Below, in pieces: positions 1-16,880 of a stretch of DNA of 23,343 bases. How positions within the stretch are numbered: the first letter of the stretch is position 1; each line of letters opens with the position of its first letter. Position numbers and translations under genes: made by a program. Source of the stretch: a virus; the IMG/VR virus record IMGVR_UViG_3300046792_000132, positions 1 through 23,343 of that record, one strand, 5' to 3'. The notes under the pieces are model-generated. The model searched no databases. It was not told the origin of the DNA and saw nothing but the letters and a program-made list of their open reading frames with translations.

Positions 1-1626
1 CGTCAGGCCAGTGGCTCCAGTGGCACCCGTCACGCCGCCACTCGGTCCCGTCGCACCCGTCGCGCCCGTAAGCCCGCCGGTGTTCATGATGCGGACGCTG
101 ATCTTGCCGGGTTGTCCCGTCGCCCCCGCGGTGCCGCTGCCCTTGCCTGCCCCCGGTGTTCCCGGCGACACGTCGACCGTCATCCGCAGCGCCCAGTCGG
201 CGTCGTCGGTCATCATGGAGATCGTGCCGCCGCCGCCGGGACCACCGCCCCCGCCGTTCACGTTCGCTGCAACGGGGGTCGCGCCGTTGCCGCCGCGCGA
301 GCGGACGGTGAGGATGCCCGCGATGTGACGTGCATTGATCGACACGGGCGAGCCGCCGCCGCCGCCGCCACCGCCAGAGCCTGTCGCATCGCCGCGACCG
401 CCAGCGCCGCCACCGCCACTGTTCATCGTGGTGTTGGCGTTGTTCCGCAGGCCGTACATGATCGGCGGCCAATAAAACATCTGGTCGCCGCCGCTGTTGC
501 CAGCGCCGTTGTTGTACGCGCCGCAAGTACCACCAGCACCCGATGGGCTTGAGCCGCCGTCGCCGCCCTTGCCACCCCATGCCGTCGCGTTGGCGGCGAC
601 ATTGGTCACCGCGCCGGTCAGTGAGCCATTGGTTCCTTGAGTGCCGACGCCGTACAGGTTGGACGACGACGCATTCGGCCCGCCGCTCGACGCACCGGAT
701 GCATTCGTCCCGCTGCCGTCGATGATCGACGTGGCGTCGACACCGGTCAGCGTGCCGTAAACGGAATGGTGCCAAGCGTTCGGATTGAACGTGATCCCGC
801 TGTTGATCGTCAGGTTGTTGATCAACGTGTTGCGGGTCGCCGTGTAGACGCTGCCCGCGCGCGTCGCCCATACTGGCGTCGTCACCCCGTCAAGGACCGT
901 GTCGCCGTCCTCGCCATTGCCGTACCACGCATCAGCGACGTTGCCGCCGAGCGTGCCGGTCGCGCCTGCTACACCGGTAGCTCCAGTTGCACCGGTAGAT
1001 CCAGTTGCACCGGTACTACCGGCTCCAGTAGCCCCTGTATTTCCAGTTGCACCGTTGGCGCCGGGAGTACCCGCGCCGGTGTTGCCAGTCCCTCCAGTCG
1101 CGCCTGTGCCGCCAGTTGCGCCTGTCGCACCCGCTGCTCCCGCGACTCCAGCCCCGGTAGCTCCAGTAACTCCAGTGTTTCCCGTTCCACCTGTCGCCCC
1201 CGTTCCGCCAGCACCTGGCGCACCCGTCGCGCCAGTAGCACCTGCGCCCGTGGCTCCGGTCGCACCCGTCGCACCGGTGACGCCGGTTGCCCCGAGCGAG
1301 AACGACTGGAACACCGCGGCGTTCGCGCGCACGTCGAGCAGGTCGCCCGCGTTGAAATCCTGCGGGTTGGTGTTGTCCTGCCCACGCACTACCGTGAAGG
1401 AGGTGCCTCCAGCCACGTACGGCCCGAGCACCTTGACGATCTCGAACTGGTTCGGGTTCCCGAGTGCGTCGAATCCAGCGGAGAGCGAGACGAGCGTGGC
1501 GTAGAAGAAGTCAGCCGCGGCGAGCGAGGGGAAATCCGAGCCATCAACGATGACGATCGTGGTCTGGCCCGGAGCGATGTTGGCTCCAAGGTAACTCCAC
1601 GCGTTATTGATGAACCGAATCGCCAT
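1..1626 (-). CDS. Collagen-like tail fibre protein, partial (C-terminus beyond window)
   Basis: The frame is open from an ATG at 1626 to the window edge, 542 codons without a stop. Residues 1-110 form a non-repetitive domain (starts [10 protein letters not shown]) closely matching the N-terminus of the fibre gene at 2326-3813, including the shared LGNPN, FEIV, GPY and RGQD motifs. Residues about 111-222 are collagen-like Gly-X-Thr triplets. A non-collagen segment follows (about 223-320), then a glycine-rich segment, and collagen-like triplets resume near residue 517. The start codon directly abuts the stop of the upstream gene (TAA then ATG). Known of the family: Gly-X-Y repeats in phage proteins form trimeric shafts. 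Inferred: the N-terminal domain anchors the fibre to the virion and the distal part contacts the host. The C-terminal tip cannot be seen. Confidence 0.82.
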
Positions 1627-3813
<2,187 letters not shown>

Positions 3814-4536: not shown

Positions 4537-5274
4537 TTACGCGCGATTGATATCGGAAGCCGCGAGCACGTAGTCCGTGTTGAGCGTCTTGATCGCAGCC
4601 GGAGTGGCCCGCAGTCCGAAGCCTGCTTGCAGCACCGACACCGGCAGGTTCCCCAGCAACTGGGTTCCCGCAACCATATATCCGCCCGACACGCGCGGCT
4701 GGCCGAACGCCGACTGCGGCGGGACCGGGGTCGAGGAGAAGATCTGGATCGTCGGCGTGGCCGCGCCGTCGAAGTAGAAACCGAGCGCGGTGTCGACCAG
4801 CGGCGCCATCGTGGTGACGGCCGGGAGCGTCGTGACACCGGCGCCGGTCTTGATGTTGAACGTGACGCCGTCCTGCGCCGTCAGCTTCTCGAAGAACACG
4901 CCGTCGGTCGGGGCGAACGGGGTGCCGCCCGAGAACATGCCGACCCGCACGTCGCTCGCGTTGTCGTTGACCTGGCCCATCCACACGAACCAGAACGGAG
5001 CGCCGGGGGAGATCAGCGCGTGCGCGGGAGTCTTGCGGTTGAACTGGATGTCGCCCGCCGCGGCGATCGTGGACTGCACCAGCCGTCCACCGTTGCCGAT
5101 CGCCAGCGCCGAACCACCGGCCACGCCGGTGACCAGCCACTCGGCCGCGATGTACTGGAAGAAATCGGTAAAGGCGATCGCCGCGTTCGCCGGGGACGGC
5201 GACGGGAAATTGCCGAACATCGTGTCCTTCGGCGCAGTTGCAATGCCATTGGGGTAACGAACGGGGACGCCCAT
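4537..5274 (-). CDS. Unknown probable virion structural protein (245 aa)
   Basis: Function not recognised. The sequence starts MGVPVRYPNGIATAPKDTMFGNFP and is rich in Ala, Gly, Thr, Val and Phe, with alternating hydrophobic residues (for example FWFVWMGQVND and ALGFYFDGAATPTIQIF) that suggest a beta-sandwich. No transmembrane or signal segment is obvious. The start ATG at 5274 is preceded by AGAAGGAAAGACA, a good ribosome-binding site lying just outside the folded element at 5288-5336. The gene follows the capsid gene in the late transcript, so an abundant virion component such as a head fibre or decoration protein is plausible. Confidence 0.75.
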   Translation of the reverse strand: MGVPVRYPNGIATAPKDTMFGNFPSPSPANAAIAFTDFFQYIAAEWLVTGVAGGSALAIGNGGRLVQSTIAAAGDIQFNRKTPAHALISPGAPFWFVWMGQVNDNASDVRVGMFSGGTPFAPTDGVFFEKLTAQDGVTFNIKTGAGVTTLPAVTTMAPLVDTALGFYFDGAATPTIQIFSSTPVPPQSAFGQPRVSGGYMVAGTQLLGNLPVSVLQAGFGLRATPAAIKTLNTDYVLAASDINRA

Positions 5275-6473: not shown

Positions 6474-7091
6474 TTAGATGCCGACCGTGGGGCCGTTGAA
6501 ATCGTGAAGATTCGGACGGCATACCCAGATCGCGAAGGGGCCGAATGTGTTGCTTCCCCCGCCAGCAACGGCGGGCATTGGTGCGAGGCCGACCAGCTTG
6601 AAGTTCAGCCCCGCGCCGACGGCGAATGACGCCGACGTCAGCACCGATGCCGACAACTGATACGGCTGCGCCGGAACCGCGACCGTCAGCGAGGCGTTCA
6701 GGTTCGCGCTGGCGGCAACGAGGTTTGCACCCGTGACGCCATCGTCCTGCGCCATGCAGAAGATGTCGGGCTGGTCCGCAACGAGCACGTAGTAATCGCG
6801 CTGCTTGGAGGCCGGGATGCTGACGACGGTTTGGTCGAGCGTGACGCCGCGAATTGACGGCGTGTTGATGGACGGGTTCTCGATGCCGACGAGGAAGCCG
6901 CGGATCGAGGCGACACCGCTGTTTTTCTGGACGTTGGGAACGCCGTTGAGATCGGCACCGGCCACCTGTGCAAGCGTGTCACCGATGTAGTACGCCGAGC
7001 CGTCGGTCGAGGGGACGCGATAACGCGTAACGCGATGCGTTTGCGCCTGCCCCAGGACCAGCGGCGTGACGCCGAATGGCCGGTTGAGCAT
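6474..7091 (-). CDS. Probable head decoration / virion protein (205 aa)
   Basis: The protein starts MLNRPFGVTPLVLGQ and is beta-prone with few charged residues. It contains RDYYVLVADQPDIFCMAQDDG in the middle and a glycine-containing C-terminal region ending FNGPTVGI. No enzymatic motif is seen. It is encoded just before the major capsid gene, 12 bases from it, a position where decoration or capsid-stabilising proteins commonly lie. The ribosome-binding site AGGAG lies 6 bases before ATG 7091. The decoration role is inferred from position and composition and would need structure prediction to confirm. Confidence 0.72.
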   Translation of the reverse strand: MLNRPFGVTPLVLGQAQTHRVTRYRVPSTDGSAYYIGDTLAQVAGADLNGVPNVQKNSGVASIRGFLVGIENPSINTPSIRGVTLDQTVVSIPASKQRDYYVLVADQPDIFCMAQDDGVTGANLVAASANLNASLTVAVPAQPYQLSASVLTSASFAVGAGLNFKLVGLAPMPAVAGGGSNTFGPFAIWVCRPNLHDFNGPTVGI

Positions 7092-12794: not shown

Positions 12795-13378
12795 CAGTCT
12801 TCCTGCGACATCACGAACACGTCAACGGCATTTTTAGGGGGGTCGGCCGCGGGGTCGGCCGGGGCGGCGGGAATGGCGTTGATCTCCTTGGCCGCGCTGA
12901 AGCGTTTCAGCCGGTTGGCGATCTCGAACAGTTCGGCCATCGAGTCATCGGTTTTCTCCTCCCGCCCGTCCACCACCCGCAGGGCCTGCGCCCGCCGGTC
13001 CATGAGGGAGGAGGCGATCCGGGCGAGGTCCACCGCGGGCACCGCCTTGTAGACCTTGGACCCATCCTTGAGGACGTGCTCGTCGCCGAGGATCAGGCGC
13101 TCGCCAAGCTGGCGCAGCGCCTTGTGCGCCAGGTGGCTTAAAACGCCCGCCTCGACCTCCGCCACCTCTTTCCGGTAGGTAGCCGCCATCCGGCCCCATT
13201 CCGGCGTTCCTACGAGCCGCAGGACGGTCGCACGGGGCACGCCGAGGATGTCCGCGGCAGTCTGGGAGTCCTTGCCGCGCAGCCACGCCTGCACGGCCTC
13301 GCGGAACGTCTCGTCGGAGATCCGGTCGGGGAGGGACGGGGGGCGGGCCAGCCGCAGCGGCTTCGGATAGAGGGGCAT
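12794..13378 (-). CDS. terS: Terminase small subunit (194 aa)
   Basis: Recognises phage DNA and presents it to the large subunit. Residues about 37-57 (DSQTAADILGVPRATVLRLV) form a helix-turn-helix, followed by helical oligomerisation segments rich in Ala/Leu/Arg/Glu (about 65-165) and an Ala/Pro-rich tail before VDVFVMSQED. Size and place directly before terL are typical. ATG 13378 overlaps the preceding stop as TAATG. An upstream in-frame extension of 54 residues exists but is Arg/Pro-rich, lies over the neighbouring gene and has no matching signal, so the short form is preferred. Confidence 0.85.
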   Translation of the reverse strand: MPLYPKPLRLARPPSLPDRISDETFREAVQAWLRGKDSQTAADILGVPRATVLRLVGTPEWGRMAATYRKEVAEVEAGVLSHLAHKALRQLGERLILGDEHVLKDGSKVYKAVPAVDLARIASSLMDRRAQALRVVDGREEKTDDSMAELFEIANRLKRFSAAKEINAIPAAPADPAADPPKNAVDVFVMSQED

Positions 13379-13560
13379 TACGGCTTCTTCTCCACCGGCT
13401 CCACCTTTTTGTTCACCGAGGTGTCGGCCCGGACGCCCGTTGCCTTGTCGGCGGAGGGGTAATCGCCGATTTGGACCGTGATCGACTGGCAGGAGGTGAA
13501 AAACAGCACGACGAGGCAGAGCAACAGGGCAATTGCGCACGCAATCGCGGCGCCAGCCAC
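13378..13560 (-). CDS. Small lipoprotein-like membrane protein (60 aa)
   Basis: After the start come about 20 hydrophobic residues (AIALLLCLVVLFFTSC), then a soluble tail ending VNKKVEPVEKKP. The FTSC sequence at about residues 21-24 resembles a lipobox, so the protein may be acylated and cleaved, or may simply stay as a single-span membrane protein; there are no basic residues before the hydrophobic stretch. GTG 13560 is preceded by GGAGGAAAAA, a textbook ribosome-binding site, and is preferred over the ATG eight codons upstream, which lacks one. It could be a spanin-like or lysis-associated lipoprotein, but no partner gene is visible. Function unknown. Confidence 0.68.
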   Translation of the reverse strand: MAGAAIACAIALLLCLVVLFFTSCQSITVQIGDYPSADKATGVRADTSVNKKVEPVEKKP

Positions 13561-13600
13561 TTTTTCCTCCGCCTGGGGGTCCATCGCGGGGAGTATACGA

Positions 13601-13626
13601 CTGCGCCCCCAGTCAAGGGGGCGCAG
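13601..13626. terminator. Strong GC hairpin, possible terminator or mRNA stabiliser
   Basis: A perfect 10-bp stem pairs CTGCGCCCCC (13601-13610) with GGGGGCGCAG (13617-13626) around a 6-base loop. It lies between the first late gene (stop at 13687) and the lipoprotein-like gene. No T-run follows on either strand, so classic intrinsic termination is uncertain; pausing or mRNA 3'-end protection is equally possible. Confidence 0.45.
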
Positions 13627-13686
13627 AAGGTGGATTGCCGTCCACTTAGCAGTTGCCCTCGTAGCGAATTCGGGGGCATGGGTAGT

Positions 13687-14079
13687 TTACGTCAACGCCG
13701 GCGCCTTGGTGTCGATGGTGCCGTCGGCGCGGGTGTAGAAGACGATGGTGTTGCCGTGGCCTTCCTTCACCTGGCTGCCATCCAGCGAAACGGTGTTTCC
13801 GGCGTTGAATCCGGTGAGCCAGGCGTCGAAAGCGGCACGGTCGGGGAAGTTGTCGGCCGCGGCACCCTCGCCCTCGCGGGGTCCCATCTTGTCCACCGCT
13901 TCGCCCAGTTCGGCGCCCTTGTCGTGCAGGGCCTCGGCGAACTTCAGGATGGTTTCGGAAGGGGCGTCGGCGTTCTCGGCGAGGAACTGGGCCACGCCGT
14001 AGGTCAGCGAGGCGACCGCTGCACCGGGGGTCTTCGACTTCACGACATCCTTGACGATCTTGGCGACGGCGTCGGTCAT
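13687..14079 (-). CDS. Unknown first gene of the leftward unit (130 aa)
   Basis: No family recognised. Starts MTDAVAKIVKDVVKSKTPG, has helical Ala/Glu-rich segments (ETILKFAEALHDKGAELGEA), then FPDRAAFDAWLTGFNAGNTV and a C-terminal strand-like end with NTIVFYTRADGTID. No membrane or signal segment is clear. ATG 14079 is chosen because GAGGAGACCCCC precedes it; eleven codons more are open upstream without such a site. As the first gene leftward of the divergent control region it may be expressed before or together with packaging genes. The 3' end carries a TAGTTTAC sequence at 13683-13690. Confidence 0.7.
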   Translation of the reverse strand: MTDAVAKIVKDVVKSKTPGAAVASLTYGVAQFLAENADAPSETILKFAEALHDKGAELGEAVDKMGPREGEGAAADNFPDRAAFDAWLTGFNAGNTVSLDGSQVKEGHGNTIVFYTRADGTIDTKAPALT

Positions 14080-14431
14080 GGGGGTCTCCTCGAGAAGGAA
14101 GGAGGGTAGCACAGGGGAGTTTACAAAAGCAAGGGGGCGGAAAATGGGGGGATTTTAACGTGCGGGGGTGTCAAAACTTGGCCCCGCGCGAATTTGCCCC
14201 CCGCCCCCTTACGCGCGCGTGACGCGAAACGCGGGCATGTGCCGCGCGTCCAGGTTAGGCACGCTACTTGCATGGCCTACGCTGGGCGGCACAAAGTGAC
14301 GGACGCCTAGCGGCACATTGCCGCAGTGTAAACTAATGAACAAATGATAACTAGTTTACAATCAAGCTCTTACCTGGCTGGCACGCTCGATGCATGTATA
14401 GCAGCGCAGTCAATCACACAAGGTGCACACA
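14080..14431. promoter_or_regulatory. Divergent intergenic control region
   Basis: This 352-base gene-free stretch separates leftward late genes from rightward early genes. It contains AGTTTACAA at 14118-14126, homopolymer-rich G tracts near 14131-14151, a GC-rich section with repeated ACGCG words near 14210-14250, and an AT-rich section from about 14325 with the inverted repeat described separately. A TTGACA hexamer reads leftward at 14172-14177, but no -10 element lies at a normal spacing, so the late promoter is not pinned down. Confidence 0.6.
14325..14362. promoter_or_regulatory. Inverted repeat with outward -10-like hexamers (operator/promoter)
   Basis: GTAAACTA at 14328-14335 and TAGTTTAC at 14352-14359 form a perfect 8-bp inverted repeat with a 16-base spacer. 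Extended outward, the arms read TAGTTTACACT leftward and TAGTTTACAAT rightward, giving -10-like hexamers TACACT and TACAAT facing the two transcription units. No good -35 is seen for either. The rightward hexamer lies 70 bases before the first plus-strand start. A dual promoter with overlapping operator half-sites is inferred. Confidence 0.5.
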
Positions 14432-14530
14432 ATGAATCCTGAAATCCTGATCTACATTGGCCTATGGGTTGCAGTCTTCGCGGTGCCGTTGGCCGTCTCG
14501 CTGTTCGACAATCGAAAGGATAAGCAATGA
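14432..14530 (+). CDS. Membrane microprotein (32 aa)
   Basis: First plus-strand reading frame after the control region. The product starts MNPEILIYIGLW, continues hydrophobic to LAVSLF near residue 25 and ends in charged DNRKDKQ: one transmembrane helix with a charged cytoplasmic tail. AAGG lies 8 bases before the ATG. The stop overlaps the next start as ATGA. Function unknown; small early phage membrane proteins can act in exclusion or as lysis regulators, but nothing here shows which. Confidence 0.6.
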   Translation: MNPEILIYIGLWVAVFAVPLAVSLFDNRKDKQ

Positions 14531-14694
14531 ACCATAAACTCCAAACGCGTATCGCCACGCTACGCGCCAAACAGCAAACCATTCTCGCGCTCGCGTCGCG
14601 CCCCGGTACTAGCACGATGGCATTTCGCGATTGCATTAGGCGTGCAAGTGACATCGACCAGCGCATTAAGGCAATGCATAGGGGCGCAAAGTGA
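14527..14694 (+). CDS. Small basic helical protein (55 aa)
   Basis: Starts MNHKLQTRIATLRAKQQTIL and ends IKAMHRGAK: basic and helical with no metal-binding motif. ATG 14527 is preceded by AAAGGATAAGC. It overlaps the previous gene as ATGA and the next as GTGA, so the three are translated as a unit. Function is not recognised; basic charge would allow nucleic acid binding. Confidence 0.62.
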   Translation: MNHKLQTRIATLRAKQQTILALASRPGTSTMAFRDCIRRASDIDQRIKAMHRGAK

Positions 14695-15377
14695 ATTATC
14701 ACCTGACAATGAAATCGAGCAATGCGAAAACGGGGCCGATTCCCGTTAGCACTAGCACGGCCGCCACATGCCCCGATGCATGCCCGTTCAAGCGCGACAC
14801 CACGGTAAACGGATGCTACGCGGATGGGGGGCCACTGGGAATGCACTGGGCCAAGGTAACCGAAGGGAAACGCGGTACAGACTGGGAAGCATTCCTGTCG
14901 GCCGTGCGCGGTATCGATAGCGGCGCATTGTGGCGCCACAATCAAGCCGGGGATTTGCCGGGGATTAATGATGCGCTGGACGTCGGCGCATTGGCGCAGC
15001 TAGTCGATGCGGCGCATGGAACGCGCGGCTTTACATATACCCATAAACCGCTAGGTTCTAGCGTTGAACGCGACGCGATACGCGCTAGCAACGATGCAGG
15101 ATTCACGATTAACCTGTCGGCCAACAATCTGCGCCATGCAGATGCATTGCTCGCCCTGAATATCGGCCCAGTGGCTGTGGTTCTACCGTCGGACCAAACC
15201 GAAAACTGCACCACGCCTAATGGCGCAAAGGTAATTGTCTGTCCCGCAACCCAGCGCGACGATGTCACATGCCTAGATTGTCAGGCATGCGCCAATCCGA
15301 AGCGTACCGTGGTAATTGGATTCCCCGCGCATGGCGCGAGCCACAAGCGCGCCACGATCATCGTCAAGAGGATTTGA
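14691..15377 (+). CDS. Cysteine-rich DUF7227-type phage protein (228 aa)
   Basis: Recognised by its N-terminal SSNAKTGPIPVS followed by TCPDACPF and GCYADGGPLGMHW, then WRHNQAGDLPG, GFTYTHKPLG, TINLSANNL and a C-terminal cysteine cluster. This pattern matches an uncharacterised family (DUF7227) spread through phages and mobile elements. Seven cysteines stand out: C27, C31, C42, C184, C194, C197 and C200, suggesting one or two metal or iron-sulfur sites. No biochemical function is established as far as I know. GTG 14691 has AGGGG six bases upstream and overlaps the previous stop; the family N-terminus usually extends a few residues before SSNAKTG, supporting this start over the internal ATG. 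Codons are less GC-biased than in the structural genes. Confidence 0.82.
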   Translation: MNYHLTMKSSNAKTGPIPVSTSTAATCPDACPFKRDTTVNGCYADGGPLGMHWAKVTEGKRGTDWEAFLSAVRGIDSGALWRHNQAGDLPGINDALDVGALAQLVDAAHGTRGFTYTHKPLGSSVERDAIRASNDAGFTINLSANNLRHADALLALNIGPVAVVLPSDQTENCTTPNGAKVIVCPATQRDDVTCLDCQACANPKRTVVIGFPAHGASHKRATIIVKRI

Positions 15378-15378
15378 A

Positions 15379-15543
15379 ATGAACCTGCAACCCATTAAAC
15401 CGGCACCCGTCGGCCCCTTTTTCTTTCACTGCATTGTGTGCGGAAACCGCTGCAATAGCGCTGCGGGTTTCGCTGACCTAGATGACGAGCCTTTTATTTA
15501 CTGGTGCGCCGCTTGCGCCGCCTATCACTTGAAAAAGGATTGA
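15379..15543 (+). CDS. Zinc-finger-like small protein (54 aa)
   Basis: Starts MNLQPIKPAPVGPFFFHC. Two cysteine pairs, CIVCGNRC (about residues 18-25) and WCAACAAYH (about 43-49), form a likely zinc knuckle. ATG 15379 is preceded by AGAGGATTTGAA and starts 2 bases after the DUF7227 stop; the longer upstream frame lies inside that gene and is rejected. Two-pair zinc modules of this size can bind nucleic acid or proteins; the actual role is unknown. Confidence 0.68.
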   Translation: MNLQPIKPAPVGPFFFHCIVCGNRCNSAAGFADLDDEPFIYWCAACAAYHLKKD

Positions 15544-15545
15544 AC

Positions 15546-15833
15546 ATGAAACCCTGTCCCATCTGCAATCGTCGCGTGCGCCGTCCTAACGGCAAGTGTG
15601 CCCAATGCGGTTTCGACCGTACCTCAATCGATCCCGGTACGCCGGAACAAATGCTACAGGAGCAACAAGGGGCAATGCTGCGGTTCCATGTCCCCACTGC
15701 ATTGCAATCGGCTTTCCTGGTGGCGCTCGCCGCGGGGCGGATTCGCTTTGATCCGGCCACGGACTGCTTCGTGCATCCCGAGGCAATCGAGCATGGTTAC
15801 GGCGAGTACATGATGCCGGGAGAGTATCAATGA
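15546..15833 (+). CDS. Zinc-ribbon protein (95 aa)
   Basis: N-terminal zinc ribbon MKPCPICNRRVRRPNGKCAQ with a second pair CAQC (C4/C7 and C18/C21), followed by a helical middle (TPEQMLQEQQGAMLRF) and a C-terminal part ending EYMMPGEYQ. ATG 15546 follows AAAAAGGATTGAAC, two bases after the preceding stop. It overlaps the next gene by ATGA. Zinc ribbons of the CPxC type are common in small phage regulators, but no target can be named. Confidence 0.7.
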   Translation: MKPCPICNRRVRRPNGKCAQCGFDRTSIDPGTPEQMLQEQQGAMLRFHVPTALQSAFLVALAAGRIRFDPATDCFVHPEAIEHGYGEYMMPGEYQ

Positions 15834-16033
15834 AGCCGCCCTTTGACATCGTCTTGACTGACTGCGACCAATGGGCCTCAGTCACTGCCAATGGGGACGC
15901 GGCAGAGGCTTGGCTTGAGGCTTGGATGATCGAGTCCGGCCGCGACGTCCAGGTCGCGTGGTCTATCTACTGGGGCGAGGTTTCGCCACTAGCGAATGAC
16001 GCGATCAGGGCCGGATTCACGATCGACATGTGA
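15830..16033 (+). CDS. Unknown small acidic protein (67 aa)
   Basis: Starts MKPPFDIVLTDCDQWASV and ends AIRAGFTIDM; acidic, Trp-rich (five Trp), with mixed helix and strand. ATG 15830 overlaps the previous stop as ATGA and has GGGAGAGTATCA before it. It is the last gene before the hairpin at 16041-16069, so it closes this operon. No family recognised. Confidence 0.66.
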   Translation: MKPPFDIVLTDCDQWASVTANGDAAEAWLEAWMIESGRDVQVAWSIYWGEVSPLANDAIRAGFTIDM

Positions 16034-16040
16034 TAGGGAA

Positions 16041-16069
16041 AAGCTATCAGCCCTTCGGGGCTGATAGTT
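16041..16069 (+). terminator. UUCG-tetraloop hairpin terminator
   Basis: A perfect 10-bp stem pairs CTATCAGCCC (16044-16053) with GGGCTGATAG (16058-16067) around a TTCG tetraloop, and two further pairs including a wobble extend it. It starts 8 bases after the stop of the preceding gene. Only TT follows the stem, so termination may be inefficient, but the form is typical of bacterial terminators. Confidence 0.68.
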
Positions 16070-16410: not shown

Positions 16411-16435
16411 TATATATATATATATATATATATAT
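16411..16435. repeat. (TA)12 dinucleotide tract
   Basis: Uninterrupted TA alternation for 25 bases followed by TTTTTC. It is self-complementary and easily melted. Other TA-rich words (GTATATATATGG near 16319, CTATATATAAAG near 16351) lie just upstream. Such a tract is unusual in a GC-rich phage and would be length-unstable. Confidence 0.9.
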
Positions 16436-16476: not shown

Positions 16477-16505
16477 TTGACAGTGGTTTTTCAATGCCTT
16501 ACATT
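16477..16505 (+). promoter_or_regulatory. Sigma70-type promoter for the HTH gene
   Basis: A consensus -35 TTGACA (16477-16482) is followed after 17 bases by TACATT (16500-16505), a 4-of-6 match to the -10 consensus. Transcription would start near 16512, leaving a leader of about 60 bases before the HTH gene at 16575. Confidence 0.7.
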
Positions 16506-16574: not shown

Positions 16575-16880
16575 ATGCTCACATTCCCCCCATTTCGGGA
16601 CGAGGTTCCGACCCCCGATCAAATCAAAACCGCTCGCAATGATTATGGTCTGACGCAAGCCGAAGCCGCATGGGTGATGGGCGTCGATCAACAAACCTGG
16701 CAATCGTGGGAGTCCGGGCGTGCGCCGATGCGCCCCGGCTTCTGGGATTATTGGCGCGTGAAGATGGCGCTGGCGACAAAGAAGCGGATCAATATCCAGA
16801 TTGAGTTCGAGGCGGCGAAGCTGGTGGCGTCCCGCACGGCAGCCGCGCCGAAGGCTTTGTGGGGGTCCAATGCCTCTTAG
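16575..16880 (+). CDS. Xre-like helix-turn-helix regulator (101 aa)
   Basis: Residues about 15-51 (QIKTARNDYGLTQAEAAWVM, then GVDQQTWQSWESGRA) form a helix-turn-helix of the Xre/Cro type with the usual LTQAEAA first helix and a WxxWExGR end. The rest (WRVKMALATKKRIN onward) is helical and may dimerise. ATG 16575 is preceded by AAAGGATACGTA; upstream in-frame starts lack such a site. A near-consensus promoter drives it. It is the only clear transcription-factor candidate in the window and lies just before the promoter at 17094 with its dyad, so it may be an early repressor or Cro-like switch. It lacks a peptidase or oligomerisation domain typical of CI-type repressors. Confidence 0.8.
   Translation: MLTFPPFRDEVPTPDQIKTARNDYGLTQAEAAWVMGVDQQTWQSWESGRAPMRPGFWDYWRVKMALATKKRINIQIEFEAAKLVASRTAAAPKALWGSNAS

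Follow-up and report, generated by a model that had tools for sequence, protein, structure and literature searches.

The intergenic control region

How are two opposed blocks of phage genes controlled from the single intergenic stretch that separates them? The question arises in the viral record IMGVR_UViG_3300046792_000132 of IMG/VR, the whole 23,343-nucleotide stretch of which is called the window here. The intergenic stretch runs from a leftward ATG at 14079 (minus strand) to a rightward ATG at 14432 (plus strand) and contains an inverted repeat, at which the initial annotation had placed a divergent phage switch with mirrored -10-like elements, so that one bound protein might control both units. 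The setting that it described is confirmed, with genes for terminase, portal and a gpT-like head protein on the minus strand and those for DUF7227 and a family-A DNA polymerase on the plus strand. Our essential contention, however, is that the control region serves as a rightward phage promoter for the host sigma-54 (RpoN) RNA polymerase, a reading of the sequence to which we attach a probability of roughly 0.75. The elements on which it is built, their order, their phased spacing and a matching module in the nearest relative are computed features of the DNA. The features of the region and its flanks are as follows.

13687-14079, minus strand: first leftward gene, with no family match; GAGGAGA precedes its ATG at 14079
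14117-14126, no strand assigned: third half-site, GAGTTTACAA, which precedes the leftward ATG by about 40 nt
14257-14272, plus strand: second sigma-54-like element, AGGCACGCTACTTGCA, 11/12 consensus positions, no IHF consensus nearby
14286-14324, no strand assigned: candidate enhancer, GCGGCACA at 14286 and 14310, with GCGGCA-CAT-TGCCGC at 14310-14324; about -81 to -119 from the predicted start
14327-14360, no strand assigned: extended inverted repeat, arms TGTAAACTA/TAGTTTACA in a 34-bp palindrome; candidate regulator site
14360-14372, plus strand: perfect IHF consensus, AATCAAGCTCTTA (WATCAANNNNTTR), the sole perfect one in the window
14379-14394, plus strand: sigma-54 -24/-12 element, TGGCACGCTCGATGCA, 11/12 consensus positions; predicted start about 14405
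14432-14530, plus strand: first rightward reading frame, 32 amino acids, membrane-peptide-like; its ATG lies 27 nt past the predicted start
14691-15377, plus strand: DUF7227 gene, a member of the rightward block (PF23872, E 1.7e-89)

The DUF7227 family (PF23872) is very widely spread: matches to it comprise at least 597 stretches of viral contigs, together with 186 annotated phage records.

IHF and sigma-54 elements

On the plus strand the CGGCA repeats (14286-14324), the inverted repeat, the IHF consensus, the -24/-12 element, the predicted start and the ATG at 14432 follow one another in that order. Both the consensus and the order of enhancer, IHF site and promoter match published sigma-54 promoters (PMC3224663, PMC7962754, PMC6528607), and by its sequence and spacing the control region looks like a member of this class. 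A perfect IHF consensus would be expected 0.005 times in the intergenic region and 0.115 times in the window. The sigma-54 consensus was scored as TGGCACG-N4-TTGC(W) over 12 positions, a motif family chosen after the sequence had been read; the only two sites in the window that reach 11/12 are both intergenic and both on the plus strand, where shuffles give 0.16. The element at 14379 contains the GG-N10-GC core (GGCACGCTCGATGC, 14380-14393, with ten nucleotides separating GG and GC) and lies 6 nt from the IHF consensus, a gap inside the peaks at 3-8 and 13-18 of the bacterial and phage sets described below. The joint IHF/sigma-54 module occurred in none of 2000 shuffled windows.

Promoters of the sigma-54/IHF kind are well known in bacteria, where they are normally used by, for example, pilus and flagellum genes; an IHF site placed between enhancer and promoter in helical phase is common among them, though not universal. 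In the mechanism that we propose, the sigma-54 holoenzyme would occupy the -24/-12 element (14379-14394) as a closed complex, IHF would bend the DNA at 14360-14372, and a host AAA+ enhancer-binding protein bound upstream would be brought round to open the promoter, with transcription running from near 14405 into the operon of replication-side genes that starts at the ATG at 14432. What we infer from the computed elements is the dependence on sigma-54, the activator, where transcription starts and whatever role the repeat may have.

The best candidate for the activator site would be the CGGCA repeats, and the second the inverted repeat. Against enhancer distances of about -80 to -150, the former lie at about -81 to -119 and the latter spans about -45 to -78 relative to the predicted start; the typical distance is quoted as 100-140 bp (PMC7962754), and the inverted repeat is nearer the start than this. 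Neither candidate was identified with a known enhancer. A third, inverted copy of GCGGCACA stands at 14238, so that 14238-14317 holds three of the window's six copies of this 8-mer. Upstream of the IHF site the window contains neither the flagellar, ftr-like enhancer CGGCA-N5-TGCCG, in place of which CGGCA-N3-TGCCG is found at 14311, nor the PilR-type TGAC-N7-GTCA, the window's sole match to which is at 6627. No gene for a sigma-54 enhancer-binding protein was found in 20 records, the window and 19 related ones, and the activator would therefore have to be supplied by the host.

The inverted repeat

The repeats GTAAACTA (14328-14335) and TAGTTTAC (14352-14359) stand exactly where they were first annotated, but each perfect arm extends one base further outward, giving 9 nt (TGTAAACTA at 14327-14335 and TAGTTTACA at 14352-14360) around a 16-nt spacer. 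The whole 34 bp form an imperfect palindrome with 16-nt arms, 2 nt between them and 13 of 16 positions paired. Palindromes with at least 13/16 pairs arise in 0.8% of dinucleotide shuffles of the intergenic region (P 0.008), and a perfect 9-bp inverted repeat in 6%; since the window has comparable 8-bp inverted repeats at other places, the inverted repeat on its own is only modestly unusual.

The hexamers taken for mirrored -10 elements are present on both strands, TACAAT (plus, 14357-14362) agreeing with TATAAT at 5/6 positions and TACACT (minus, 14325-14330) at 4/6, but neither has a -35 partner: 17 nt upstream stand TAATGA on the plus and TAGTTA on the minus strand. A consensus scan of 13000-16000 found no sigma-70-like site, and no -35/-10 pair spaced by 16-18 nt on either strand. 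Of the proposed switch, what survives is a genuine dyad between opposed blocks, which is probably a protein-binding site; two sigma-70 promoters facing away from it are unsupported. The initial annotation had named loss of the repeat in close relatives as grounds for abandoning a switch, and the repeat is indeed absent from relatives in collections that had no terminase relative above about 45% identity, which speaks against conservation of such a switch. The control region offered no recognisable leftward promoter of whatever class, and a search of viral contigs for TGTAAACTA-N14-18-TAGTTTACA gave one match, about chance level, in an unrelated AT-rich contig (L082).

An HTH_31-type protein is encoded at 16575-16880, 2.2 kb downstream of the inverted repeat. 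Directly 5' of its gene, at 16477-16505, is the sigma-70 match TTGACA-17-TACATT, which is better than either TACAAT or TACACT and suggests that the phage may use sigma-70 promoters elsewhere. The same neighbourhood contains a hairpin scored as a minus-strand terminator (16044-16067) and, 5' of the sigma-70-like site and the HTH_31 gene, a (TA)n tract at about 16411-16435 within an AT-rich stretch; TA-rich tracts likewise lie between gene blocks in MW202796 and OK172329.

The inverted repeat abuts the IHF consensus (14360-14372), and the upstream half of the IHF footprint would presumably fall on it. This overlap makes an operator or a second activator site its most likely role: a regulator probably binds here, across part of the IHF footprint, and either helps or competes with IHF. 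Alternatively, its AT-richness and symmetry may partly reflect the A/T-rich flank of the IHF site itself. The half-site at 14117-14126, near the leftward start, keeps open room for one protein touching both units.

Two readings place a phage protein on the repeat. It could be the operator at which a phage regulator, the HTH protein for example, would exclude IHF and so shut the sigma-54 promoter; the position of the repeat against the IHF consensus and across the expected upstream footprint, the palindrome at P 0.008 and an HTH gene 2.2 kb downstream all suit this proposal, which we regard as possible but somewhat doubtful, as the repeat does not recur near the promoter of the HTH gene itself and the half-site centres are 25 bp apart, an unusual spacing for a small HTH dimer. 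That the repeat instead carries back-to-back sigma-70 promoters, with one protein, perhaps the same HTH protein, switching both units, is very unlikely: it would account for a real dyad separating divergent blocks, for the 5/6 agreement of TACAAT with the -10 consensus, for the third half-site near the leftward start and for the HTH_31-type protein encoded nearby, but the missing -35 partners, the lack of any sigma-70-like site in 13000-16000 and the absence of the repeat from relatives argue against it, and it leaves the adjoining IHF and sigma-54 elements unexplained. Two known boxes were tried on the repeat and rejected. The TyrR/PhhR box is TGTAAA-N6-TTTACA, a half-site spacing that does not fit; the NifA box, TGT-N10-ACA, fits one 16-bp unit, but it is a weak motif and lies too close.

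Relatives of the window

Searches by DNA returned as close relatives only matches to the DUF7227 gene in phages, and single-protein searches with the first leftward gene and with the terminase returned none, so a terminase alignment was used to gather relatives; 80 were fetched, with 32-43% identity in the best segment and 859 kb of DNA. The exact module occurs once in these 859 kb, in the relative with the best terminase E-value (L144). Here AATCAATAGGTTA-N16-TGGCATGCTTGCTGCA lies in the homologous region and is directed away from the terminase, as in the window, with AGTGTAAGACACT-type repeats upstream and a gap of 16, one helical turn longer than the window's 6. Sigma-54-like sites preceded by tandem TGAC-N6/7-GTCA palindromes occur in three further terminase relatives (L163, L164 and L165), and in L163 three of the sites score 12/12. 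Most of the 80 lack the module, which thus recurs in the group without being universal there. The parts of MW202796 and OK172329 that were read contain no clear module.

In L163 two identical 12/12 sites, TGGCACGAGTCTTGCT, stand face to face and 46 nt apart (5089-5166) upstream of the terminase operon, and the third, at 4626, is directed to a leftward gene.

Among carriers of DUF7227, one contig (L058) has a 12/12 sigma-54 site 63 nt before the DUF7227 start (region 729-792) and another (L222) has a complete module about 2.3 kb upstream of the gene (region about 484-3450), while the DUF7227 Pseudomonas phages XD2 and NoPa have no module within about 6 kb on either side of it. The two contigs are unrelated phages, both with a sigma-54-like site or module 5' of the DUF7227 gene. 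When the control region, a consensus module and one phage module were compared by BLAST with annotated phages, only chance-level matches appeared, and these searches thus yielded no cultured phage that carries the module. A possible extension of the motif, TATAGC after the -12 box (TGGCAYGN5TGCATNTATAGC), was found in six stretches, some of them promoter-like, but this is not clearly above chance and it was not used as evidence.

The module in phage contigs and bacterial genomes

The pattern of an IHF site, a gap of 3 to 33 and a sigma-54 element was scanned over viral contigs, with the reversed order in the same collection as control and the forward pattern over bacterial genomes as positive control. 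All three scans were sampled as the matches listed, and the comparison is of gap distributions, not of raw counts of forward and reversed modules. Among the matches listed, a gap of 3-8 or 13-18 was found in 36 of 45 non-coding-like phage matches (Rayleigh p 2e-5) and 28 of 33 bacterial ones (p 7e-8), against 4/31 in the reversed-order control and 14/48 coding-like phage matches, the open-frame measure behind the non-coding calls being crude in GC-rich DNA, where coding-like bacterial matches are also phased. Peaks about one helical turn apart are as expected if IHF and polymerase need defined faces of the helix. Intergenic, helically phased modules are carried by dozens of apparently unrelated phage contigs (L172-L291) among the matches listed.

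Within 150 nt upstream of the IHF site, TGAC-N5-8-GTCA accompanies 21 of 60 phased phage modules among the matches listed, often in tandem, where 0.2 would be expected by chance and 2/46 unphased matches listed have it. In the bacterial set the same palindrome precedes type IV pilin genes, identified by Pfam Pilin, in L489 and L525, a gene encoding a pilin-like methylation motif in L461 and a sigma-70-family gene in L496. Its position before bacterial pilin genes leads us to read TGAC-N7-GTCA as a putative PilR-type enhancer. CGGCA boxes precede the flagellar operons of L511, where Pfam identifies flgE and flgK, and of L471, where FlgB/C/D/E-like reading frames were judged by eye; the half-sites are separated by N3 in the window and by N5 in these two, and the flagellar likeness is therefore a lead only.

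Two explanations would deprive these matches of any promoter function. In an AT-rich island of a 63% GC genome, chance may yield a dyad and IHF-like and sigma-54-like matches that do nothing; the motifs are short, they were noticed after inspection and 8-bp inverted repeats of similar quality occur elsewhere in the window, but the empty shuffles, the phased gap and the presence of the module in the nearest relative as well make this unlikely. The phage TGGCACG-N4-TTGC sites could also belong to repeated palindromic elements or be bound by a different DNA-binding protein, as is brought to mind by L267 and L346/L351, which have many symmetric units with an internal hairpin and sites facing one another. 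No such unit is present in the window or in L144, however, between the boxes any base is tolerated at the four positions while those of the sigma-54 consensus are fixed, and among the matches listed IHF is phased just as in bacterial promoters, pilin and flagellar ones included; we consider this explanation highly improbable.

Comparison with known systems and significance

The closest analogues of the control region, if it is a sigma-54 promoter, are bacterial. In the RpoN/IHF/activator pilin promoters, such as pilE of commensal Neisseria with Nps-Npa (PMC6528607) and pilA with PilS-PilR, the GG-N10-GC core is as in the window, an IHF site likewise lies between activator site and promoter, and an upstream activator is needed. 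The TGAC-N7-GTCA of the L489 and L525 pilin genes is shared with other phage modules but not with the window, which further differs in driving phage genes and in having an inverted repeat that touches the IHF site. The flagellar sigma-54/IHF promoters (L511 flgE-flgK, L471) resemble the window in the order and phase of their elements and in their upstream CGGCA/TGCCG palindromes, whereas in the window the half-sites (N3 rather than N5) lie closer to the IHF site and phage genes follow. With a lambda-type divergent operator/promoter switch the window has in common divergent blocks, a central dyad and an HTH gene not far away, but it has no recognisable back-to-back sigma-70 promoters, and no integrase was among the proteins scanned.

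The transcription of phage early genes is usually ascribed to the housekeeping sigma factor or to factors that the phage encodes. A promoter needing RpoN, IHF and an enhancer-binding protein would instead tie infection to a nutrient or appendage circuit of the host. We tentatively suggest, as an idea more apt to be wrong than right, that many environmental phages, that of the window included, place their early genes under promoters modelled on sigma-54/IHF promoters of host appendages, reading the regulator of the pilus (TGAC-N7-GTCA) or flagellum (CGGCA) and so tuning infection to appendage production; were this true, the regulated pilus or flagellum might double as the phage receptor. In the open-access literature searched we found no report of phage control regions of sigma-54/IHF build, which is not proof of absence. 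Phased modules in dozens of phage contigs, about a third of them with pilin-type enhancers among the matches listed, suggest a widespread and overlooked form of control.

Arrays of near-perfect TGGCAYG-N4-TTGCW sites were seen in five phage contigs (L267, L346, L351, L192 and L248), and in L267 and L346/L351 many copies lie in symmetric units whose internal hairpin reads GTAAGTC..TTGATATTCAA..GACTTAC.
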